Of a stretch of DNA of 25,125 nucleotides, positions 2,308 to 14,487 are shown piece after piece. The stretch covers positions 1 through 25,125 of the IMG/VR virus record IMGVR_UViG_3300034374_001468, one strand, 5' to 3'. The notes under the pieces are model-generated. The model did no database searches. It was given only the letters and a program-made list of their open reading frames with translations, and was not told the origin of the DNA. The position numbers were made by a program, and so were the translations under genes. The first letter of the stretch is position 1. Every line of letters begins with the position of its first letter. The stretch comes from a virus.

Positions 2308-5300
2308 TTAAGATGCTATGGCGCGGTCAGTAACCCGACGCCAGTTTGTTCCGTCACTGAATACAGGGACTGCCCCGCCTGTTTCATCCGAGCAATACGC
2401 CATATCTCCCGCCGAACTCGCGGGTAGACCAGCAACCGTGTAGGACCGCAACCGAACGGGGCCGAAAAATTGAGTGGTGCTGCTACCAACACGGATAGTC
2501 TCTGAGCCAGCAGCTATGACTGACAATTCGTTAGCACTACTCCACCCAATACCCGTATCAAGGTCAGCTTTGTTTGGGGCCAGAGTTGGGTTGGTGCTGG
2601 AAGCAGCCTCGTTCAGCAGCGCGGGGCCAGCGGCGTTGGTTCCTACAACATTACCTGCGAAAGCAACCTGACTTGTTGAGCGTGTGATATACATCGTCTC
2701 GATGACACCGCCGCCAGCATCGTTATAACTGCGAAGAACAAAATCCTCGAGGGCAGATGCTTCGTGCGTTCCAATCTCCCAACGCTTGACGCCAGCGGTT
2801 AGAAGACGAACGCCTGTCTGGTATCCGTTGGTTGCGTCAATGTTTAGCCATGCTGAGACTGTACCGCCATCGCGGTCGATGAACATATCTCCTGTGGTTG
2901 TGACGTTGCCGCTACTGTCCCAACGAAAAGCCTCTGCCCCACCTGCGATAGCAGCACCAACATTAGCGGAAACCCAGCCAATACCGGTGTCGAGGTCTGC
3001 TTTGTTGGGAGCGAGCGTCGGGTTCGTTGCCGTTGCGGCCTCGTTCAGCAGGGCGGGGCCAGCGGCGTTGGCAATATTTAACGCCGTAGGAGTGACGTTG
3101 AGAACCGAACCGGAGTTGTCATCGACGTACAGAATTCCGCTGCTGTCATATATTGTCCATGTGTCTGTTCCTGACAGACCACCGCGTTGAAATTGAAGAC
3201 CGGCATTTCCTGAGTCAGAAATGATTCGCATGAAGGATGAGTTTGCCCCGGTTTCCTCCACAATAAGTTGAGGAGCGGTTCCGGCACCTTTCACATGCAA
3301 TCGTGCAGATGGTCCAGATTCGCCAATACCGACGTTACCCGCGCTGGTGATGCGGACCTTCTCAGAGCCGCCCGTAATAAGCACAGTCGGGTGTGCGGAA
3401 AATGTACCAAACTGACCCTGACTGCCGCCGCCGCTGGAATACACGGCAGACTGGACAGAACCGCCAGTGTTTCTGAAAATGCTTTCAGTAACGCCGCCAA
3501 TATCAAGTTTGTAAGTAGGCGTAACTCCGATGCCGACGTTGCCGGTAGTTGTCGAAATGGAAAGACGTTCAGTGCTGGTGGACCAGTTATCCGATGTATC
3601 GGCAATTACAAAACGCCCATCCACATTACCGTCACGACCGATGCCCCACTGGTTATTTGTGTTGCCGACCGAGGCCATCGTGATCTGCACATCTTCGGCA
3701 TTGCTACCAGAGACATGCAACGCGCCATCACCGGCGACCGTTGATGATCCAATCAGGACTTGGCCGCTGCTGTCCATGCGGACCTTCTCAGAGCCGCTAA
3801 TATCAAAAGCAACTTGATTACCGCGCAGACGCAACTGCTCCCACGCAGAAAGATCACGGTCAAACGCCTGAACGGTGCCTTCACCGGCGACAAGCCCGAA
3901 GTTAATTTCTACGCCGCTGCCGCTTCCGGGCAATCCTGTCCCCTGCGCCGCAAAGCCGCCCTTGTTCTGCGTCACGTCTCCGGCTGCATCGCCCAGAGTT
4001 GTGTTGCCCGTCGCACTCAGCGTCGTAAACGTCCCCGCACCCGCAGACGACCCGCCGATCACCGTGCCGTCGATGGTGCCGCCGTTGACGTCGGCCGTGG
4101 TCGCGGTAAGGCCCGCGAAGGACGGGCTGTCCGTTGTAGCGACACCCTGATTGAGCGCCTTGACCGCCGTGATGTTGGTCAGCTCGCTGTCCATCAGCGC
4201 ACCGGCAGCGGTCACGTTTGCGGTATCGGTAACGTCCGCGTTGGTCTCAACCGTGTCCAGCTTCGTGCCGTCCACCGACACGTCGCGGCCATCAACCTCG
4301 CCGTCCTTCAGCAGCACGCCGTCAATGGTCACGCCAGCCGCGGCGGTCGTCTCAGCGATAGTGTCGGTCGTGATGCTGTCGCCAGCAGACACGACGATGT
4401 TCGTGCCGCCACTCGTGTTGCCGTTTGCCAGCACTTCCGACAGTTCGTTGTTCGACCCGATCTGCGCATCGACGTAAGTCTTCGTCGCGAGCGCAGTCGG
4501 CAGCGTGTCGTGTGAACCGGAGACGCTTGTCAGGTCCGTATCGACGGCAGCCGTCGCCAGCTTGCCGAACGTGATCGAGCCGTCGTCGGGCGTGTAAGTT
4601 GCCGCAGCCTGGCCGTGAACCACTTCGATCTTGACGCCGGAAGCGGGCGCAGTCGTGAAGGTCAGGGCGGTGCCAACCAGCGAGTAGTTCACCTTCAACT
4701 GATAAACGCCATCGAAGTAAACCTGCGTGTTGCCCTTCTGCCCCGGTTCCGCAGACAGCGTGAACGCAACAGTTGTGTTATCCCCGGTAAAGGTATCGAC
4801 CTGATAATCCGTGAACGCCTGAAGCGTCGAGACGGTCAGCGTGTCGGTGGAGGCAACACCCACATCGCCCGTCGCGCTAAAGAGCAGGAACTTGCCGGCG
4901 CGTGACGCCTTGGTAGGCAGCGTCATATCAATAGAGGTCGGATCCGTGACCGGCGCCTTAATCGCGCGCGACGCATCCTCCGACACCTGCTGCACAAAGA
5001 TCGTCTGGCTGTCGAGCTCGGTGTTAAGAGACGACGCAAGAAGATCGCCGGCGGTCACGAAGTCCGTCGTGCGCTCAATGTCGCGCGCCCCGACAATCGT
5101 GACGTTATCGCTGCCAGTTGCGGCGCTGACTAACGTGATCGAGCCTGTGCCGGTTACACCAATCGAGACAGTGTAGTCAGTGGTCAGCGTTTGCAGACTG
5201 TCGTTGACGTACACCGCGAGGTCGGTCTCTGCGAGCACGGGGAAGTTGAAGTTATAAGGCCCCACGCCGGCCGAGCCGGTGTAAACGACGCGGCGCGCGA

Positions 5301-5361: not shown

Positions 5362-7824
5362 TTAGTTGCCAATCACGTTGCCCAAATCCGGGCCGCGCTC
5401 CGGTAGGAAGTCGCCCTGTTCCCACCATGATCTCTGATTGTAGTCGCGGTCCCAGCGCTGAGCGCGGCGTCGGAATGTCTTGCGGGCGTCGGGATCGGTC
5501 ATCAGCCTTATCTGGTCGATAAGCATCCGCTCCGTGGCGAGCCGCAAATACCAGACGCTCGAGCCCGGGGTGTATCGCGTGACGTAATCAGTCAGCTCGC
5601 GAGCGAAGTTGGTGTCCTCGCCCTGTGCAAGTTGCAGCATGTTGCCGAGAGTGAGGTTGATTGTGTCTGTGCCGAGGCCGGCGGTAGGGCCGGCAAGTGT
5701 GGCGCCGAAGCCGCTGCCGTAGCGGTTGATGTTTGAGAACAGAAAGTCGCCTACGATGCCCAGACCGCCGCCTTGCAGCAGCGCTGCGACCCAGAAATTA
5801 ACGTCATTGATTGGCCGTGGATCTCGGCCATAAACGATTTGCTTGGCCTCGAGGATCGCCGCGCCCATGACTGTCGTGCTTACAACGAAACCGGCAATCG
5901 CCGCATAGCGCTTTTTGGGGTCGGCGATTGCCCACATGCGGCCGAGGTTTTGATGCCACAGCGTCACCGGGAAGGATTTGAACTGTGCGACGCCGCGCAC
6001 GACCTCGCCAACAAACGTGCCTTTTGCAGTGCCTCCCCCAAGCGTTGCGCGAGCTCGCAAGGTCGCAACCGGCACCGCCTGATCCATTTGCCGCTCCATC
6101 ATCGACATGGCCTTCATGGCCAGCTCCTCGCGATACATGCGCGGGAGGTCGTCGCGAGAAGCGACATCGAGGATGCGCAGGAAGGTTGCGCCATCACGGT
6201 CGAGCAGCGGTGTGGCGCGGATCACGTCCCAATCTGCCGCGCTAATTCCCTCCGCATCCATGACCTGCTGAAGCCCGGGGTGCAGCTCGTCGAAGCGCTT
6301 GGCCACCTCGTCAGCAAGATAGCCTTGGAACTCGAGGCCGAAGGCTTGGCGGCCAGCTCGTGTAAACCCTGTCAGACCAGACGCGCGGTGAACGGTTTCA
6401 GCAATGCGGCGCGTGACACCTGGCTGCATGTGGTCGCCAAAGTAACGGGCGTTCATTGTGCCAACTTCGATATAGGAGTCAGCGACAAGGCCCATGCGCG
6501 CGGCAAACTTAGCGGCGTCCGCGTCCTGCCGCATTTCGCTGAATACTCGAGACATCAGCGGCGTGACCGGCATACCAATAAAGTTCGCCGCCATGCGCTG
6601 GGTATTGAAGTCGGACAGAGCCGTGATCGGTGCGCCACCAAGCAGCGCGCCAGAGACGACGTTGCGCGCGCCGCCCATAATCAATGCAGCTCGAGTGTTC
6701 GCGGTCGTGTCGCCCTTGTCCCAGAGCTTCCACATATTGTCGAACTTAACGAGGTCGCCCTGTAGTTTATCCAGCGCCTCATTGCCCGGACGCTCCGCTG
6801 CCTTCTTTTGTGCGTAGGCTCGCAGCGCAGAGATCGTGGCGTCCGGGTTTGGGCCGAGAACCTCGAGCTTGGTTATATCGCGCGCCATGTTGCGCAGGTG
6901 ATCGACCATCGTCTGAAATACGTCAGGGTCGCCAAACCGCTCCTGATACTCGCTCCAGCTCTTTGCGTCTTTGAACTTGAGGAAGCGGCTATCGGTGCGC
7001 CGGTTGTGAAGCGCTCGACCTCGAGGTGTTGTGCCTGGGATCAGATCGTTCAGGCCGTCCGACGCGATTGAATCGTAAACCTCGGAAAGCGCCGCACGGA
7101 TTGTGTCATCGTTGAAGGGCAGCCCGGTGCGGCCATCCACCATGTTCTCGATGTCGAGGCGGTCGCGGGTAAATTTAATCCATTCGTCCTTGGATACGTC
7201 GCGGATCAGCCGGCGGTCGTGGTGCTGCGGCAGCCCATAGTCGGCGCGCTTTGCAATCCGCATCCCAGCATTGTTTGCGCGCTGCCGCGCCAGCTCATGC
7301 GTTTGCTTCCACGCCTCTGCGAGCTCGCGGGCTGCCGGGTTTTTGCTGTCCTCGCCGAACGCTTCTTTTACTAGGTCGAGCTGCGTCGCGCGATTTCGCT
7401 CGCCGCCGGTGACGGTGCGTCGGAACTCGTACAGCACGCTGTCCATGTGCGCGAACAGCTCTTTCTCGACGCCTCGCTGATAGTAGGCAAGGGACACGCC
7501 CCGGCTAGAGTTGTCGGCCTCGATCAATGCTTGCAGCGCTCTGCCGGGGCGGAACGTGCCGCGCAGCTCGGGGTAGGCGAGCATGTCCTGTGCTCGAGCT
7601 TGAAACTTAACAGCCTGCAAGATCTTGACGCGCTTCGAGTGCGCTGCGTCTGCCTTCATACGGTCGAAAGTCTGGCGCCCGGCCGCTGCGTCAGCTTCCT
7701 CTGGCCCCATCGTTTTGACGTTTTCGTCATAGATGGCGTCGAAAAGGTCGCGCGAATATCGCGCCTGCTCCGGCGTTACGTCGCCAGCGGCTTCGGCTTC
7801 AGCAATACAATCGCGTAGGCTCAT
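5362..7824 (-). CDS. Large virion-associated protein, probably ejected with DNA
   Basis: The 820-residue protein follows the gp16-like gene directly. I place the start at the ATG at 7824, which overlaps the upstream TGA as ATGA and has a well-spaced AAGGA; an in-frame ATG at 7833 is closer to that sequence and less likely. The first 600 residues are mostly helical and charged, without a motif I can name. Residues about 643-662 (IAGFVVSTTVMGAAILEA) and 676-695 are hydrophobic and could insert in the host membrane. The C-terminal 70 residues (PGSSVWYLRLATERM, then RRRAQRW, WWEQGDFLPERGPDL) match the end of large structural proteins of many proteobacterial podoviruses. Placement among internal core genes suggests a role in DNA ejection. 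No lysozyme or transglycosylase motif was seen. Confidence 0.85.
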   Translation of the reverse strand: MSLRDCIAEAEAAGDVTPEQARYSRDLFDAIYDENVKTMGPEEADAAAGRQTFDRMKADAAHSKRVKILQAVKFQARAQDMLAYPELRGTFRPGRALQALIEADNSSRGVSLAYYQRGVEKELFAHMDSVLYEFRRTVTGGERNRATQLDLVKEAFGEDSKNPAARELAEAWKQTHELARQRANNAGMRIAKRADYGLPQHHDRRLIRDVSKDEWIKFTRDRLDIENMVDGRTGLPFNDDTIRAALSEVYDSIASDGLNDLIPGTTPRGRALHNRRTDSRFLKFKDAKSWSEYQERFGDPDVFQTMVDHLRNMARDITKLEVLGPNPDATISALRAYAQKKAAERPGNEALDKLQGDLVKFDNMWKLWDKGDTTANTRAALIMGGARNVVSGALLGGAPITALSDFNTQRMAANFIGMPVTPLMSRVFSEMRQDADAAKFAARMGLVADSYIEVGTMNARYFGDHMQPGVTRRIAETVHRASGLTGFTRAGRQAFGLEFQGYLADEVAKRFDELHPGLQQVMDAEGISAADWDVIRATPLLDRDGATFLRILDVASRDDLPRMYREELAMKAMSMMERQMDQAVPVATLRARATLGGGTAKGTFVGEVVRGVAQFKSFPVTLWHQNLGRMWAIADPKKRYAAIAGFVVSTTVMGAAILEAKQIVYGRDPRPINDVNFWVAALLQGGGLGIVGDFLFSNINRYGSGFGATLAGPTAGLGTDTINLTLGNMLQLAQGEDTNFARELTDYVTRYTPGSSVWYLRLATERMLIDQIRLMTDPDARKTFRRRAQRWDRDYNQRSWWEQGDFLPERGPDLGNVIGN

Positions 7825-10800
7825 GCGACGCATCCTTCAAAGCGATCTAACATTCTTTGATCTTGCTTGATCTCGTCGAGGAGCTGGCGCTTGCTGACGT
7901 TATCAACGACAGGCGTGCCGTCAGCCGCTTCGCGCGTTAGTGGCACGAAGTCGAGGAGATCAGATTGAGCTTGTGCGTCGGTGTCGAATAGGCCGACGTT
8001 CATAGGTGCGTCGCCGCCACGCAGCGGACGATCTACCTCGAGCTGCGCGCGCTGTGCGTCGGTAACGGGCTCGACGCCAGGAACCAGCGTTTGCTCGCCC
8101 TCACGCACCGTTTCGGTATTGTAATTTTGCGGCGCAGCATCTACACTTTCGTCGGAGGTTTGACCAATGCGGTTTTTCTCGCTCGAGGGCAAGTACCCCA
8201 CCGTGCTGCGCGACGACGGCGCGGCGTTCATACTTGATGACGACGGCACCTGGGGCGAGATCTCGGCCAAGGAGCTGCTGTCAGATACGCGCACCGACGA
8301 GCTGACCGCCGCAGAGTTTGACACAGAGCTGGCCGTGTTTGGCGGCAATCTCAGCACGTTGCCGACGACCTGACCGAACGACGCGTCCATCTGCGGCAAA
8401 ACACCCTCGTATAATTCAATCATCGCCTGATTAGCTGCGGCCTCAAGCGCGGGCCTGTCGTCTCGCAACGCCTCAAGTCGTGCTCTTAGCGCCTCGTCAG
8501 GGATGCCGGCGAAGGCTTCGTCGAGATCCTCGTCGCCGCGCACAATCTCATAAAGTTTGTGCCCGCCCCGACCATGCTTCGCATCGAAGAGGCCGCGCTC
8601 GATAATGATAACCTCGCCGATCACGCCGTCATCGTTGATGACCATCAGCTTCTTGTCGAAATAACCAGAATACGCCTCTTCGCCGACCGGAGCGCCTTTA
8701 TATCCCTCATCGACGATGTGGTACGTTTTACCCAGCTCTTTAACGAAAGCGTCTGCCTCGTCTGGTCGCGTAACCGTAACCGTCGCGCGGCTAACGTCGG
8801 CAATGCGGTTAAGGTTGCCGTTATACTTGTCCTGGATCTTCGCCTCGATCCGCTCGCGCCTTTTTGCCGGGCCTGGGTGATATTCAACGTCATGTTCGCC
8901 AGCGGCTCGCTTTACAGCCGCGTTAAGCTCAACATTAAAAATGTTGTTCCGCTCCACGATGTCGTCGATAGACGCATACGCTTGGCGCGATTGTAGTGTA
9001 GCGGCCAGACGCCTTAAATCTAACGGCTCCAGATCTTGCGCCAGGACAACGCGCTTCTTTTTCGCGTCAGGTCCGAGCTCGAGCATTTTTTCAGCGTTCT
9101 TTTGGGCGACTTCCTGCGCAAACTGTTCGTCGGTTACGACGCGAACCGGCAGCGTCTCCATGCCAGCTTCCGTGGCAATCGCATATGTCGAGTTGCCATC
9201 GAGTAGCGTATAGCTGCCGTCGCCGTTGTCCTTGACGGTGAGCGGGCCGCGCTTGGGCATCTCGTCTCGAGCAGCCTGCGCCATAAACTTGCGCGCGTTG
9301 GCAATGCCCTCTGGGCGAGCGCGGATCGGCACAATGTCCTCGCGCGCGATCTCGATGCTGTCAGGTGTGGGCTCAAGATAGTCGCGGTAATCCGGCCCGA
9401 TTGCGTCAGGATCACGCGGCGGCTCAGCGCCAACATAGTCACGCTCGAGCTGGTCAGCCTGCTGCTTTACGGCTGGGCCATCGGGCTCGTCGAACGCTGC
9501 TAGTTCTTCCCGGCTAGGGCTCGCCGCGAGGCGATTGCCTTCCTCCGCAACATCGACAGTGCGTCCTGCATCGCCAACATCTGCCCCATTGAAATCGCCT
9601 CGCTCAACTGCCGCTCGGACAGCATCGACGAAGGCTCGACTAGATCGGCTGATGTTTCCACTTTCTTTGAAGCTCCGGGCTGCCGCTGTGAGGGCGTCGC
9701 TAAGCTCGCCGCGTCTGTTGGCGACCGCCTGGACGATTTGGATCGCTTGGCCATCTGTTTCGCTCCTGCTTTGATTTTGCGCCGCCGCCAGCACGTTTCC
9801 TTCGCCTTCAATCCGTGCGCGGTTTTCGACGAGGGAATTGAACACGGCGCGGTCGCGGCGTAACTGCTTCAGCGCGGCGTCGAGAACACGAGCGCGCTCT
9901 TTGAATAGGCTGGTGGTAATCAGCTCCTCGCCGAACAAACCCACTTGTACGGCCGTGTCGAACTCCGCCTCGAGGGCCTGCCGCACAATCGCTTCAGCCT
10001 GCACCGTGTTGGTCGGCTCGGCTTCCGCCAAGAGCTGCATAATGGGGAGCTGGCGATCTTGGTCAGTGACAAGACGGCCAACGATAGCCGCATAGTTTGC
10101 TGGCACGACTTCGTTGACAACTGCGCCGAACGCTTCGTCCGATAGCCCAACAAGGTCACGCGCTTGGCGCACAAGGTTTGATCGAGGCGGCAGCTCGCCG
10201 ATACGCCCGGGCTCAACGCGGAGCACCTTCGCTGCGTCAATAGCAGTGCCGCTGCCTTCCGCAATGTTCTTCATCGCCGCAGTCACACGAGCTTGCTCTG
10301 GTGTGATGCCGTCTGATTCACGCAGCAGATTGCCGTAAATAACAGGTTTCTGGCTGGGATCTTGCGCCATGATGCGCTTGGCCAGACCAAGGCGCTGATG
10401 TCCGTCGGCTATGACGCGGCGGCCGTTGGCAAACTCATAAACAACGATCTGGCCGGCCTTTACGGGATCCCATTGCGTAATACCCTGCAAGCGCTCTGTA
10501 ACGCCGAACTCATCGCCGCCCATTTTGAACTGGAAGGTCTGCGCATCGACTTCGATGTCGTTTGGCTCAAACCGAAATATCGTCGCGTCGAGGTTGTCGG
10601 CGTGATGAATATCTTGCTGCCGGGGAGGGGCGGACGGCGCATCGACCAATGGACGCACATTGTCACTGTCACTAATGACCGCCTCGGCCTCGAGGGTGCG
10701 CTGCATGTGCTCGAGCTCTGCATCCTCGAGGGGATTGTCGTCAAACAAATCCTCCTGCGCCTGTATCTCCTCCTGCGCGCCACGGGCCACGGCCGGCAGC

Positions 10801-11720
10801 TCGACACCTGCTTCCTCTAATGCGCGGAGGCCGGCGGCGACCTCTCTATCGCTTAGGCTTTGCAGGCGCCGGTCCAGCTCGACAAGCGATGTCTCGTCGA
10901 TGCTTTGGTTGAGCTCGCGGGCGTATAGACCCAGCGGTGTCTCCAGCCGCCGCGCAGCGATCTCAAGCGGTGTAGCAATCGCGCCGCCAAACGCGGTGCC
11001 GCCAAGGAAGCCGGTTCCGACCGCCGCTGCAAATGTACCGGCGTCGTACTTGAGGCCAATCGAATCTCGCCACGCCGCCACGCTTGGTGACCCCTGCACC
11101 TCGATGCCGGCGTTAAGTAAGCCCTCGAACAGCGCGATCCTGCCGATGTTTTTAACCGCCAGGTCGCCGGGCTTGCGAACGACGCCGCCCATCACGTTCA
11201 TGGCGCCATAAGCAGGATCTTGCACCATGAGCCGCGCGTCGGCGCCCAAGGATCCGATAAACCCAAACACCTCGCCAAGAGCTGTGCGGCCTTGCTTCTT
11301 TGCGCGCTGCTCTGCGTCTAGAGCGAGCTGCTGCGTGGCGCTAATGTGCTGGTCGGCGCTAAGAACGCCCAGCTCGCTCTCGAGCTCTGGGTACTGCGCG
11401 ATAAGGGCGTTTATCTTCTCGACGCTGGTCGAGTAGCTATCCGACAGCAGGCCAAAGCGGTTGGCGAAGCGGTCAAGCGCGTCATACTCGACATTAAGCT
11501 CGATGTCGGGGCGCTCTGGCCGCTGGCCCGTAACCTCCTCGATGCGGTCGAGGATGGGCAGCCAATAGTTTCGATTGGCGGTGTTGTTGTTTTCGTACTG
11601 AGTCGTCAGGCGATCCCGCGTGTAGTCAGCCTCGAGCGCCTCCAGCAGTGACGCCGTAGGTGCGTAATCCTCGTCAAAAGTACGACCAAGAAGGTCGGGC
11701 TCTGAGTCGAATATCGTCAT
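7821..11720 (-). CDS. Giant internal virion protein with ParB-like and RelA/SpoT-like segments
   Basis: At 1299 residues and third in a gp14/gp15/gp16 order, this fits the T7 gp16 place (gp16 is about 1318). Residues about 140-260 hold weakly hydrophobic stretches. Residues 384-500 look ParB/Srx-like: a start of the F-E-P-N-D-I-E-V type, then A-N-G-R-R-V-I-A-D-G-H-Q-R-L at 431-444. A second ParB-like segment at about 796-862 carries L-L-D-G-N-S-T-Y-A-I-A-T. Residues 918-1115 resemble a RelA/SpoT nucleotidyltransferase fold: a basic R-R-E-R-I-E-A-K-I, D975-V-S-R978, a GEVIIIERG strand with E1036, and AKHG near H1049. Residues 1125-1185 are a Ser-rich linker lying opposite a plus-strand ORF. 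Such mixtures are known as polyvalent proteins. Catalytic activity is not shown. It overlaps its neighbours by ATGA at both ends. Confidence 0.88.
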   Translation of the reverse strand: MTIFDSEPDLLGRTFDEDYAPTASLLEALEADYTRDRLTTQYENNNTANRNYWLPILDRIEEVTGQRPERPDIELNVEYDALDRFANRFGLLSDSYSTSVEKINALIAQYPELESELGVLSADQHISATQQLALDAEQRAKKQGRTALGEVFGFIGSLGADARLMVQDPAYGAMNVMGGVVRKPGDLAVKNIGRIALFEGLLNAGIEVQGSPSVAAWRDSIGLKYDAGTFAAAVGTGFLGGTAFGGAIATPLEIAARRLETPLGLYARELNQSIDETSLVELDRRLQSLSDREVAAGLRALEEAGVELPAVARGAQEEIQAQEDLFDDNPLEDAELEHMQRTLEAEAVISDSDNVRPLVDAPSAPPRQQDIHHADNLDATIFRFEPNDIEVDAQTFQFKMGGDEFGVTERLQGITQWDPVKAGQIVVYEFANGRRVIADGHQRLGLAKRIMAQDPSQKPVIYGNLLRESDGITPEQARVTAAMKNIAEGSGTAIDAAKVLRVEPGRIGELPPRSNLVRQARDLVGLSDEAFGAVVNEVVPANYAAIVGRLVTDQDRQLPIMQLLAEAEPTNTVQAEAIVRQALEAEFDTAVQVGLFGEELITTSLFKERARVLDAALKQLRRDRAVFNSLVENRARIEGEGNVLAAAQNQSRSETDGQAIQIVQAVANRRGELSDALTAAARSFKESGNISRSSRAFVDAVRAAVERGDFNGADVGDAGRTVDVAEEGNRLAASPSREELAAFDEPDGPAVKQQADQLERDYVGAEPPRDPDAIGPDYRDYLEPTPDSIEIAREDIVPIRARPEGIANARKFMAQAARDEMPKRGPLTVKDNGDGSYTLLDGNSTYAIATEAGMETLPVRVVTDEQFAQEVAQKNAEKMLELGPDAKKKRVVLAQDLEPLDLRRLAATLQSRQAYASIDDIVERNNIFNVELNAAVKRAAGEHDVEYHPGPAKRRERIEAKIQDKYNGNLNRIADVSRATVTVTRPDEADAFVKELGKTYHIVDEGYKGAPVGEEAYSGYFDKKLMVINDDGVIGEVIIIERGLFDAKHGRGGHKLYEIVRGDEDLDEAFAGIPDEALRARLEALRDDRPALEAAANQAMIELYEGVLPQMDASFGQVVGNVLRLPPNTASSVSNSAAVSSSVRVSDSSSLAEISPQVPSSSSMNAAPSSRSTVGYLPSSEKNRIGQTSDESVDAAPQNYNTETVREGEQTLVPGVEPVTDAQRAQLEVDRPLRGGDAPMNVGLFDTDAQAQSDLLDFVPLTREAADGTPVVDNVSKRQLLDEIKQDQRMLDRFEGCVA
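8119..8158 (+). promoter_or_regulatory. Plus-strand promoter-like sequence and ribosome-binding site
   Basis: On the plus strand TTGTAA (8119-8124) and TACACT (8142-8147) are separated by exactly 17 bases, each matching four of six bases of the sigma-70 boxes. GGAGG follows at 8154-8158, eight bases before the ATG at 8167. Each element alone is ordinary; all three in the right order and spacing before the one protein-like plus-strand ORF make it a reasonable promoter and ribosome-binding pair. The distance from a start near 8154 to the ribosome-binding site would be very short, so initiation could instead occur further upstream. Confidence 0.45.
8167..8373 (+). CDS. Acidic 68-residue protein nested antisense in the gp16-like gene
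   Basis: This is the only plus-strand ORF here that reads like a protein. It encodes MRFFSLEGKYPTVLRDDGAA, then a D-D-D-G-T-W-G-E turn, a helical A-K-E-L-L-S-D-T-R segment and D-E-L-T-A-A-E-F; it is acidic, with 84% G/C at third positions. An ideal GGAGG stands eight bases before the ATG and promoter-like boxes lie upstream. The register is such that every Asp or Glu codon here reads as Ser on the other strand, which explains the Ser-rich stretch of the virion protein. Either this is a small added gene tolerated by a flexible linker, or the ORF is a mirror image of the linker; the ribosome-binding site favours the former. The fold recalls small unnamed phage proteins; function unknown. Confidence 0.55.
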   Translation: MRFFSLEGKYPTVLRDDGAAFILDDDGTWGEISAKELLSDTRTDELTAAEFDTELAVFGGNLSTLPTT

Positions 11721-13933
11721 TGCGGCAATCGCATTGGGCCAACCTCTGTGAGAACCTCCTTGGTGCTCTCAAGAGACCGGCGAAGTGCGGTGTGCAGGTT
11801 GGTAAAGGTAACGATCCTCGGGTTACCACGCGGCGCTTGGCCTCGAGCGTTTAAGATCTCGACGCTGTTCGCAACGCCAGTAGATCTGAGCTGGAAATTT
11901 GTAATGTCATCGTCAGACATTTCATCAGGCGTGATCTCAAAGCCGACCAGCGCCGACATGGCCTCGCGCGTCATATATCGACGATTGTCCTCTACAAATT
12001 CGGCGTCGCTGACCGGCGTCCGTGGATCGAGGATGATTTGGCTGTTGCCAAACTCATAAACGCCGCCGCTCACCTGCCTGTTGCCTTGGAACGTCGCGCC
12101 CATCGCTTCCTGCAAAGTGCGCTCCCACAGGGATCCACGAGAATCCTCGGTCACGCCCGTACCCAGTCGATGCTTGTAGGCGTGCTCGGCGGCTTTCAGG
12201 GCTTGCGCGCGTTTGGAGCCAGACAAGATTTGGCCGGCAATCCCAGCGCTGATTTTATCGCGCGTGTCTTTGTCGGCTTCCGGTTTAATTGTGGGGCCAT
12301 CGTAGTTGCGGCCCTCGAGAGCATCAGCCAGGAAATTTTGGTTGCCGGTTCGCGAGAAATTGGCTGCCGCAAAAGCCCAGTCTGATCCATTGCCGCTGTC
12401 GATCTGGTTAATCACGTTCGCAGTTTGGTCGCCAAATGCGTTTGCAAGCCCCATCACAAACGCTGTCTTTTCCGAATTGGGGACGTTTGCGTCTTGCATG
12501 AACTGCGTATAAGCGCGAGCCTCGGACTGGCTGAAATAGATTGGCTTGGCGTTATTAGAGGCGGCAAAGTCATCGATACTTCTCTTGCGCTCCAGCAACG
12601 GAGAGGAGGGATCGACGAGCATTGCATCGCCAGCGGCCGATTGCGCCACATCGCTCGGACCAACCTCGCCAACGCCCTGACCGTTCTCGCGAAGATAGGA
12701 AACCTGATCCGTCGCCAATGCGGTTCGCATAGCGGTTAATCTCGACTCAAACGCGGCGACGAGATCATTGTTGAGCTGTGCGTTAGCGGCGTTTGGATCT
12801 TTTCCTCTCAGGTCGTTCGCGTCATATACGAGCTGCTCTAAGCCAAATACGTTTTGGCCATTGGCAATCCCGAGCCTTTGGTGCAGTTGCTCGAGGCGGG
12901 CCGCATTGGCAATGGCTGTTTCATCGCCGGTGGCTCGAGCTTGCGCGAGGTTGTCCTGCACCGCAGCCTCGCTTACATCAGACCCGCCGGTCAGCGCCGA
13001 CGTGAGCTCGGTCGTCTGCCTATTGACGGCGGCCTTCCGTGATGCGGCAGCCGATCCTTCGCCCTTAATGATGGCGCGCATCTCAGCGGCCAGCGTCTTG
13101 TGTGTATCGCCGTCAACGCCGCGCGCAGGTCCAGTGCGGTCGTCTGCGTCCTCCATGAAATCACGGAGGAACTGCGCCTTGTCCGTAGCTCTTGCAAAGT
13201 CGCCGCGCACCCGCTCTTTCGAGGCGCGATCACGCAGGTTTATGACATTGCGCTCGACAGTCGAAGGATCGACACCAAGGTTCTGAGCGGTCGCGCGATA
13301 GGCCGCGATTGTGGGCTCTGGATCTATGCCGTTGCGGGCGCCGATCTCGATCTGCTCGCCGTAGCTGTTATGCGCCGCGATGCCGCCGGCCTGTAAGCGC
13401 TTGAGCTGCTCTTTTAGGTGCGTTTCCGAGTATTGCAGGAACGCGGAATTTCCAGCGCTCTCAAGCGTCAGATTTAGCTTTGCCGCCTCGATAGGGTCGA
13501 GCTCGCCGATTGCGCTGGAGTAGCCTTGGCTAATTGCTGAGAGGCGATCTCGCAGGGCTGTCGGGTCGCCTTTTTCTTGCTCCCATTGGAACAGGGCGTC
13601 AGCAATGTCTTTGCGCGCCTTAACCTCAATGTTCGCAGAGCTGATCTTAACGGCCGCCTCATAAGCCGCTTTGTCGTAGGCGGTTTGCGGCGCGCCATCC
13701 TGATACTGCTGCAACACGCCGCGAGGATTCTGTGCCGCGTCGCGCTGGCCGCGCGCAATGGACTGCTGCTCGATCTTGTCGGTGGCAAACGCCACCACGC
13801 GGTCGGCTGCCTGCGACACAAGCGTTGCGCTTTTACCTTGCTCGCGGAGCGCCGCAAAGTCCGCGCTTGGTGGAACCGCTATGCCGGCGGATAGGCGGCC
13901 GGTGCGCTGATATGTTGGATAACGCGGCGCCAT
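11717..13933 (-). CDS. Internal virion core protein, T7 gp15-like
   Basis: The 738-residue protein lies between the gp14-like and gp16-like genes and nearly equals T7 gp15 in length (about 747). It is polar, Ala/Gln/Asp-rich and largely helical, with no signal peptide, membrane segment or recognisable enzyme motif. In T7 the gp15 protein joins gp14 and gp16 to form the inner core that is ejected and spans the host periplasm; the same role is inferred here from size, composition and gene order rather than from a residue-level match. The ATG shares a base with the stop of the gene before it (TAATG), and its TGA overlaps the next ATG as ATGA, so the three core proteins are likely made in a coupled ratio. 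Confidence 0.82.
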   Translation of the reverse strand: MAPRYPTYQRTGRLSAGIAVPPSADFAALREQGKSATLVSQAADRVVAFATDKIEQQSIARGQRDAAQNPRGVLQQYQDGAPQTAYDKAAYEAAVKISSANIEVKARKDIADALFQWEQEKGDPTALRDRLSAISQGYSSAIGELDPIEAAKLNLTLESAGNSAFLQYSETHLKEQLKRLQAGGIAAHNSYGEQIEIGARNGIDPEPTIAAYRATAQNLGVDPSTVERNVINLRDRASKERVRGDFARATDKAQFLRDFMEDADDRTGPARGVDGDTHKTLAAEMRAIIKGEGSAAASRKAAVNRQTTELTSALTGGSDVSEAAVQDNLAQARATGDETAIANAARLEQLHQRLGIANGQNVFGLEQLVYDANDLRGKDPNAANAQLNNDLVAAFESRLTAMRTALATDQVSYLRENGQGVGEVGPSDVAQSAAGDAMLVDPSSPLLERKRSIDDFAASNNAKPIYFSQSEARAYTQFMQDANVPNSEKTAFVMGLANAFGDQTANVINQIDSGNGSDWAFAAANFSRTGNQNFLADALEGRNYDGPTIKPEADKDTRDKISAGIAGQILSGSKRAQALKAAEHAYKHRLGTGVTEDSRGSLWERTLQEAMGATFQGNRQVSGGVYEFGNSQIILDPRTPVSDAEFVEDNRRYMTREAMSALVGFEITPDEMSDDDITNFQLRSTGVANSVEILNARGQAPRGNPRIVTFTNLHTALRRSLESTKEVLTEVGPMRLPQ

Positions 13934-14487
13934 TAGAACGGATTCCCGTGGGGCAGCGGCGTCATGGACGAACTGCCGTAGTATGTGCCGCCGCCACTAA
14001 ACGCGCCTGCGTTGTAGGCACCCATCGCGGCTTGTCCGACAGACAATACGGCGCCGAAAATAGCGCTGTTCATCGCCTGCTTGCCTGCGGCTTGGTAAAT
14101 GCCCGCCTGGAATCGCGCTGCGCCTCGAGCGATCTCTGCGTTCGCGTCAGCAATCGCGACGTTATCGAGCGCAGTGAAGTAGTCCTCGACGCCTTCGCCA
14201 AGGTTCGCTGTCATTAAGTTGCCAGTGGAACCAGCAAACGGATTCAAAGTGCCGGCTGCGCCTCGAGCGTTGATTGTGGCCATATTGCGGCGCGTGTCCT
14301 CGAGCGCCTTAATGCCTTCCTGCCTGTAAGCAAGCGCTTCCTGCCGCGCCCGCAACGCTTGGCTGCGACCCTGTATCTCGGCCTGCTTAGCCTGCGCCTG
14401 ATACATAGCCTTTTGGGCTTGGCCTGCGCGGATCTGGCCCATCGCTGAAATCAGCGAGCCGGCCACCATAACTGCGGTCATTGTCAT
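13933..14487 (-). CDS. Internal virion protein, T7 gp14-like
   Basis: The 184-residue product has the usual form of gp14-type proteins (T7 gp14 is about 196): a hydrophobic N-terminal stretch (MVAGSLISAMGQIRAGQAQ), a long Ala/Gln/Arg helix with A-x-Y-x-A-Q-A-K-Q-A-E-I-Q-G-R repeats to about residue 70, an N-P-F-A-G-S-T middle, and a second Ala/Gly-rich hydrophobic segment around 145-165. In T7 gp14 leaves the capsid first and is thought to form a channel in the outer membrane. The start lies one base after the stop of the tail tubular B gene. The identification rests on the characteristic N-terminal half and position. Confidence 0.85.
   Translation of the reverse strand: MTMTAVMVAGSLISAMGQIRAGQAQKAMYQAQAKQAEIQGRSQALRARQEALAYRQEGIKALEDTRRNMATINARGAAGTLNPFAGSTGNLMTANLGEGVEDYFTALDNVAIADANAEIARGAARFQAGIYQAAGKQAMNSAIFGAVLSVGQAAMGAYNAGAFSGGGTYYGSSSMTPLPHGNPF

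Follow-up and report, generated by a model that had tools for sequence, protein, structure and literature searches.

A conserved candidate gene nested antisense in a late internal-virion-protein-like gene of a phage group, preceded by a promoter-like site of its own

Antisense overlapping genes (OLGs) have been supported experimentally in bacteria, for example by the three novel OLGs of E. coli O157:H7 (PMC9927249; reviewed in PMC7457138), and the individual prokaryotic cases analysed by the authors of the review are typically young compared with the gene in which they lie (PMC7457138). In the temperate phage Fc02, olg1, olg2 and gene 10 show extensive antisense overlap, encode small proteins, possess an own promoter and have exclusion activity (PMC9936078), while the RNA STnc6030 of the temperate prophage BTP1 is antisense to the tailspike gene and a DNA-injection gene and acts in superinfection exclusion (PMC7067206). 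Here we describe a putative 68-codon gene that lies antisense within a late virion-protein gene in the 25,125 nucleotides (nt) covering positions 1 to 25,125 of the IMG/VR virus record IMGVR_UViG_3300034374_001468; this whole stretch is called the window below.

The locus resembles the bacterial antisense OLGs in that a protein gene is embedded antisense in another one and has its own, here predicted, expression signals. Unlike them, however, it is conserved across strongly diverged phage lineages, its product has a confidently predicted fold, and it lies in a late virion gene. The extensive antisense overlap, the small protein and the own promoter (again predicted here) are shared with the Fc02 genes, but those are situated in the lysis-lysogeny switch region, whereas the present gene sits within a late structural one. 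In function, STnc6030 comes closest as a precedent, its independent antisense transcription, predicted in our case, likewise running across a gene for a DNA-injection-type protein; STnc6030 was reported as non-coding, in contrast to the conserved protein that appears to be encoded here. Prophage moron loci (e.g. STMMW_20121, PMC7067206) also have their own promoter, which is a consensus match in the window, on the strand opposite to the late genes, but the present gene differs from them in being nested in a coding sequence, in being kept by all intact homologues of the virion module instead of occurring sporadically, and in having no terminator seen nearby. Judged by every comparative test applied, the locus appears to be a well-conserved antisense gene pair belonging to the known class of antisense OLGs, within which its depth of conservation, its promoter-like site and its location inside a virion gene would make it notable. 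Antisense OLGs of prokaryotes and viruses are debated, many candidates being young, weakly conserved and backed mainly by expression data. The pair described here offers the opposite, namely deep conservation in two frames, a tightly coupled register, a fold predicted with confidence and a promoter-like site whose position is conserved, and the question becomes directly testable in any cultured relative.

The coordinates bore out the arrangement from which the sequence-only reading had started, that is, a 68-codon plus-strand open reading frame (ORF) with GGAGG eight bases before its ATG and TTGTAA-17-TACACT upstream, wholly contained in an open minus-strand gene of 1299 codons in a register one base apart and facing a Ser-rich, linker-like stretch of the virion protein. 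The features are the following, with the supporting evidence in parentheses:

8167..8373, plus strand: nested antisense gene, 68 amino acids (aa) (ATG-start ORF; homologues in all lineages; synonymous-shuffle z; AlphaFold2 model)
8154..8158, plus strand: Shine-Dalgarno (SD) sequence GGAGG, 8 nt before the nested ATG (sequence; all lineages checked have GGAGG or AGAGG before the ATG)
8119..8124, plus strand: -35 hexamer TTGTAA of the sigma-70-like candidate promoter (site score and rank)
8142..8147, plus strand: -10 hexamer TACACT, ending 6 nt before the SD (site score; 17-bp spacer from the -35 hexamer)
7821..11720, minus strand: host gene of 1299 aa, internal-virion-protein-like, in the late operon (ORF, PHROG match, neighbours)
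8166..8373, minus strand: Ser-rich virion linker, residues about 1116-1185, opposite the nested gene (predicted disordered by AlphaFold2)

The minus-strand ORF at 7821-11720 is uninterrupted across the whole nested ORF at 8167-8373. Plus-strand codon position 3 is opposite minus-strand position 3, and plus positions 1 and 2 are opposite minus positions 2 and 1; because the third positions coincide, every GAN (Asp/Glu) codon of the plus strand faces a TCN (Ser) codon of the minus strand. An open frame of this length is unremarkable in such a register, as 7-81% of the synonymous re-samplings remained open, depending on the lineage. What goes beyond chance is the amino-acid conservation of the nested ORF across lineages, not its mere length.

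Relatives of the locus were found in several lineages. Lineage W comprises the window and three near-identical contigs. The nested protein shows 63% identity in lineage A (IMGVR 3300030090_004082), 57-59% in lineage B (3300030109_003902 and 3300007963_000095), 49% in lineage C (3300007963_000120 and the metagenome-assembled genome (MAG) contig PBWY01000041.1), 29-32% in lineage D (3300037847_001791, 3300037961_000908 and 3300021368_000334) and 27-29% in lineage E (3300025646_000968 and 3300017951_000164, besides 3300007640_005888, which is truncated by the contig end). All intact homologues found of the virion C-terminal module have the nested ORF in the same position and register, with ATG and SD, down to 32% identity of this module and 27-32% identity of the nested protein, and ten residues (M1, R2, F3, F4, G8, P11, G18, W29, E45 and G59) are invariant in all lineages. 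When the virion C-terminus was used as query, only loci with the nested ORF were returned, the one exception being a contig fragment that stops short of it, and no homologue with the linker but without the nested ORF was found among the virion homologues searched. Phages sharing only the middle part of the virion protein (SI2, Ruegeria 45A6 and P-SCSP1a) are without the nested ORF; the homologous gene of SI2 encodes no more than 792 aa and has no C-terminal module. The 68-aa product itself had no match in Pfam, PHROGs, PDB sequences, or phage or plasmid records, and no non-nested homologue in the phage, plasmid, viral-contig or genome collections; its relatives in viral and MAG contigs were always at the same nested site. 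Thus, the expectation that homologues would keep the plus-strand ORF together with its start signals was borne out for every intact homologue with the C-terminal module, and the suggested search for protein relatives of the product did find some, though confined to the same nested position. A recent insertion of the gene into the linker is unsupported, no relative having been found with the linker and without the ORF, and the nested gene, whether it was added to a tolerant linker or originated within one, appears to be old in this phage group.

Because the register couples the two frames, amino-acid identity alone proves nothing. Plus-frame similarity was compared with expectation by synonymous re-sampling, in which the virion protein was held fixed. 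Among W, A, B and C, each of the six pairs had a plus frame above expectation, with z values of 4.8-6.7, and the control, 223-296 windows elsewhere in the virion gene, gave means of -0.1 to 0.8, standard deviations of 0.75-1.0 and a maximum of 3.0. Within and between lineages D and E, z was 5.4-6.3. The excess of conservation sets in just ahead of the ATG, around the SD, stays strong over plus codons 1-50, fades before the stop codon and is gone after it. When virion similarity was subtracted from plus-frame similarity, no other window matched the nested region in five of six pairs, and 3 of 219 did in the sixth. Virion 4-fold sites that are restricted in the plus frame were depleted in transversions (odds ratio 0.36, p 0.016, from pooled, non-independent pairs); doubly 4-fold sites were not (odds ratio 0.92, p 0.88). 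The reciprocal test, in which the virion frame was assessed given the plus frame, yielded z values of 1.9-4.4, and the ratio of substitutions at virion positions 1 and 2, compared inside and outside of the nested region, shifted as predicted in each of the six pairs, none of them being significant singly. Selection on the nested frame is therefore seen beyond what the host frame forces, and the host frame is constrained too. The substitution tests on both frames, which the sequence-only reading had named as a check, support selection in each of them and with it the true antisense overlapping pair that had been put forward conditionally.

The nested product was modelled with AlphaFold2 from seven sequences, with a predicted local distance difference test score (pLDDT) of 91 and a predicted template modelling score of 0.76. 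The predicted elements are strands at residues 2-6, 10-14, 20-23 and 29-32, a helix at 34-39, a strand at 44-46 and a helix at 48-58, according to which the product would be a small, beta-rich folded protein. Foldseek gave no reliable fold match in the PDB; the best viral match was the unnamed protein A0A881T3I0 (E 0.03, probability 0.99). The matches to the designed repeat proteins Ika8 and Tako8 were discarded as apparent sums of weak repeats. The stretch of the virion protein encoded opposite is, as noted above, predicted to be disordered.

These data also bear on the question of whether the plus-strand ORF could be an unused by-product, preserved through the coupled register by the conserved virion linker alone. 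A conserved minus-strand protein does force the plus codons to be similar, and the GC-rich window has many open antisense frames, but every pair stands out even with the virion amino acids held fixed, nowhere except at the nested region does plus similarity equal or exceed virion similarity, the promoter and the SD are kept, and a confident fold of the product contrasts with the disorder of the virion segment. We consider such a by-product very improbable; the tests conditioned on the virion amino acids strongly disfavour it. On comparative grounds, the nested ORF is almost certainly a real protein-coding gene, whose protein is under selection, and the virion frame has a weaker constraint of its own.

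The promoter scan used a fixed 17-bp spacing and an approximate scoring matrix, thus the ranks and not the absolute scores carry the argument. Among the 25,096 plus-strand positions of the window, TTGTAA-17-TACACT was the top 17-spaced sigma-70-like site. Candidate sites of similar or greater strength, 6 nt before the SD, were also present in C (TTGAAT/TATATT), D (TTGACT/TATACT), E1 (TTGACA/TATATT) and E2 (TTGATA/TATATT), and those of W, C, D1, D2, E1 and E2 each ranked first on the plus strand of their locus (8-25 kb); the MAG relative of lineage C has a weaker site (TTGAGT/GATATT). The proposal that the gene is expressed independently of the late operon thus held in part, the position and score of the site pointing to it in W, C, D and E and its degradation in A and B speaking against it. 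No single-subunit RNA polymerase was found in the longer related contigs by a search whose positive control worked. Of the lineages, A and B alone yielded tyrosine integrases, and some of these phages, at least, therefore look temperate; the window itself covers only the late region, and the contigs are fragments, in which the missing integrases elsewhere mean little.

The explanation that we favour as a whole, with some reserve, is an antisense pair in which the nested gene yields an accessory protein from its own promoter while the late operon is off. In this explanation, a small plus-strand gene would be nested in the disordered C-terminal linker of the gene for a late internal virion protein of the DNA-ejection type, and in most lineages the host RNA polymerase would use the sigma-70-like promoter directly before its ribosome-binding site to make an antisense message from it, with no dependence on the late operon of the minus strand. 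The product may be an accessory protein, soluble in the cytoplasm, that is made either during lysogeny or soon after the DNA has entered, with a moron-like role, for example in superinfection control or host take-over, and the nested position would cost no extra genome length. An accessory gene for the phase when the late genes are silent is suggested by the lack of a single-subunit RNA polymerase together with the integrases in A and B, and a role either in lysogeny or as an early accessory function, the two taken jointly, is likely.

If only the early phase mattered, the gene would be an early lytic one, read by the host polymerase during DNA entry, and its product would block a host defence or redirect the host, lysogeny being irrelevant. 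The sigma-70-like promoter independent of the late operon fits this, as does the probable transcription by the host polymerase when no phage-encoded single-subunit enzyme is seen in the longer contigs, and the available contigs of most lineages contain no integrase. That last point means little in fragmentary contigs, however, A and B do carry integrases, and no known family of Pfam or PHROGs resembles the product (the search did not extend to PADLOC); we regard a purely early lytic role as possible, but rather unlikely.

The STnc6030 precedent (PMC7067206) raises another alternative, in which the antisense RNA outweighs the protein: it would pair with incoming mRNA of the late ejection gene and exclude superinfecting relatives, while the ORF would be secondary or part of a dual-function RNA. 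The transcript predicted here would likewise run antisense to a gene for a putative ejection protein, and its promoter is conserved. Nevertheless, selection acts on the plus-frame amino acids, the lineages retain both SD and ATG, and a fold is predicted for the product, whereas a purely base-pairing RNA would need no codon-level conservation, and STnc6030 was reported without an ORF above 60 aa (PMC7067206). A leading role of the RNA is thus, in our judgement, clearly unlikely.

Several points weigh against the accessory-protein explanation. Lineages A and B, which have the integrase, have no or only a degraded sigma-70-like site, which weakens its lysogeny part. No terminator-like hairpin was detected near the nested gene in W, D1 or E1, and no functional match of the product was obtained by sequence or fold in Pfam, PHROGs, PDB sequences or Foldseek. 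Across the deep split between W, A, B2 and C on one side and D and E on the other, z was only 2.7-4.5. Furthermore, the shuffle test ignores shared ancestry, but between lineages the third positions are close to saturation, and the windows outside of the nested region serve as control.

The gene in which the ORF is nested matched phrog_10691 (unknown function; residues 388-759) and phrog_21 in PHROGs. Its same-strand neighbours are gp14-like, tail, major head, head-tail adaptor and terminase genes, which make up a late podoviral operon, and the gp14-like neighbour has a PF24072 match above the cut-off at 13933-14487. The gene follows the gp14-like gene in this operon, as expected of a T7 gp16-like gene; homology to T7 gp16, or to the transglycosylase domain of that protein, was not found, there being no Pfam match and only the two PHROGs matches named above. 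In an AlphaFold2 model of virion residues 954-1299, whose overall mean pLDDT of 50 is too poor for a fold search, model residues 155-266, which include the stretch opposite the nested gene, had a pLDDT below 50.

Residues about 954-1005 of the virion protein resemble RelA/SpoT-type synthetases. Pfam gave no match for this segment, and the label given to it in the sequence-only reading stands only as far as a weak match between a profile of five relatives and Tas1 (E 0.19) carries it. Lineage B (loci L015 and L016) is without about 100 residues around window virion residues 770-870, a stretch with weak ParB-like matches; the virion protein is therefore modular between its two overlapping genes, the second of which is described below. 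The virion frame is open in all lineages except in the MAG contig L019, where it is broken upstream of the linker at about 3019-3438 (only 140 codons are open) and the nested plus-strand ORF is intact; either a sequencing error or decay may account for this break.

All alternative frames of eleven window genes were scanned against lineages A-D, and the top scores fell within the same virion gene, at codons 685-735 in the +1 frame of the same strand:

9500..9754, minus strand: second overlapping gene, +1 frame, 84 aa, SD AGGAG (ATG and frame kept in W and A-E; z 4.1-13.7)

Its product, MAKRSKSSRRS...LSERQLSEAISMGQMLAMQDALSMLRRK, had no family or phage match, and homologues are at the same place in W and A-E (e.g. 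L031:13040-13288, minus strand; L038:9731-9973, minus; L047:5417-5668, plus; L051:5033-5314, plus). Third-position divergence of the virion gene over the second gene was 0.42-0.59 versus 0.59-0.74 elsewhere, and between E1 and E2 it was 0.09 versus 0.53. It is a tentative idea, which may well not hold, that the virion gene serves as a scaffold for two further conserved genes, an antisense one for the time when the late operon is silent and a +1 one expressed with the late operon; if true, a single DNA segment would serve both phases of the phage life cycle. The presence of two such candidates in a single gene suggests that conserved genes within the virion genes of phages are missed by gene callers, which favour a single frame at each locus.

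A further conservation peak (z 4.8) was observed in the window gene at 5362-7833, codons 369-413, in the +2 frame and with lineage D only, and it may be due to chance among 165 scans. In SI2 (Dunaliella viridis virus), a +1-frame ORF is present at L029:6902-7132 (plus strand), the C-terminal half of which, MSFDEMALMGGDLALLDSLQNL, weakly resembles the 84-aa product by eye; this likeness suggests that the second gene may be older than the antisense gene.
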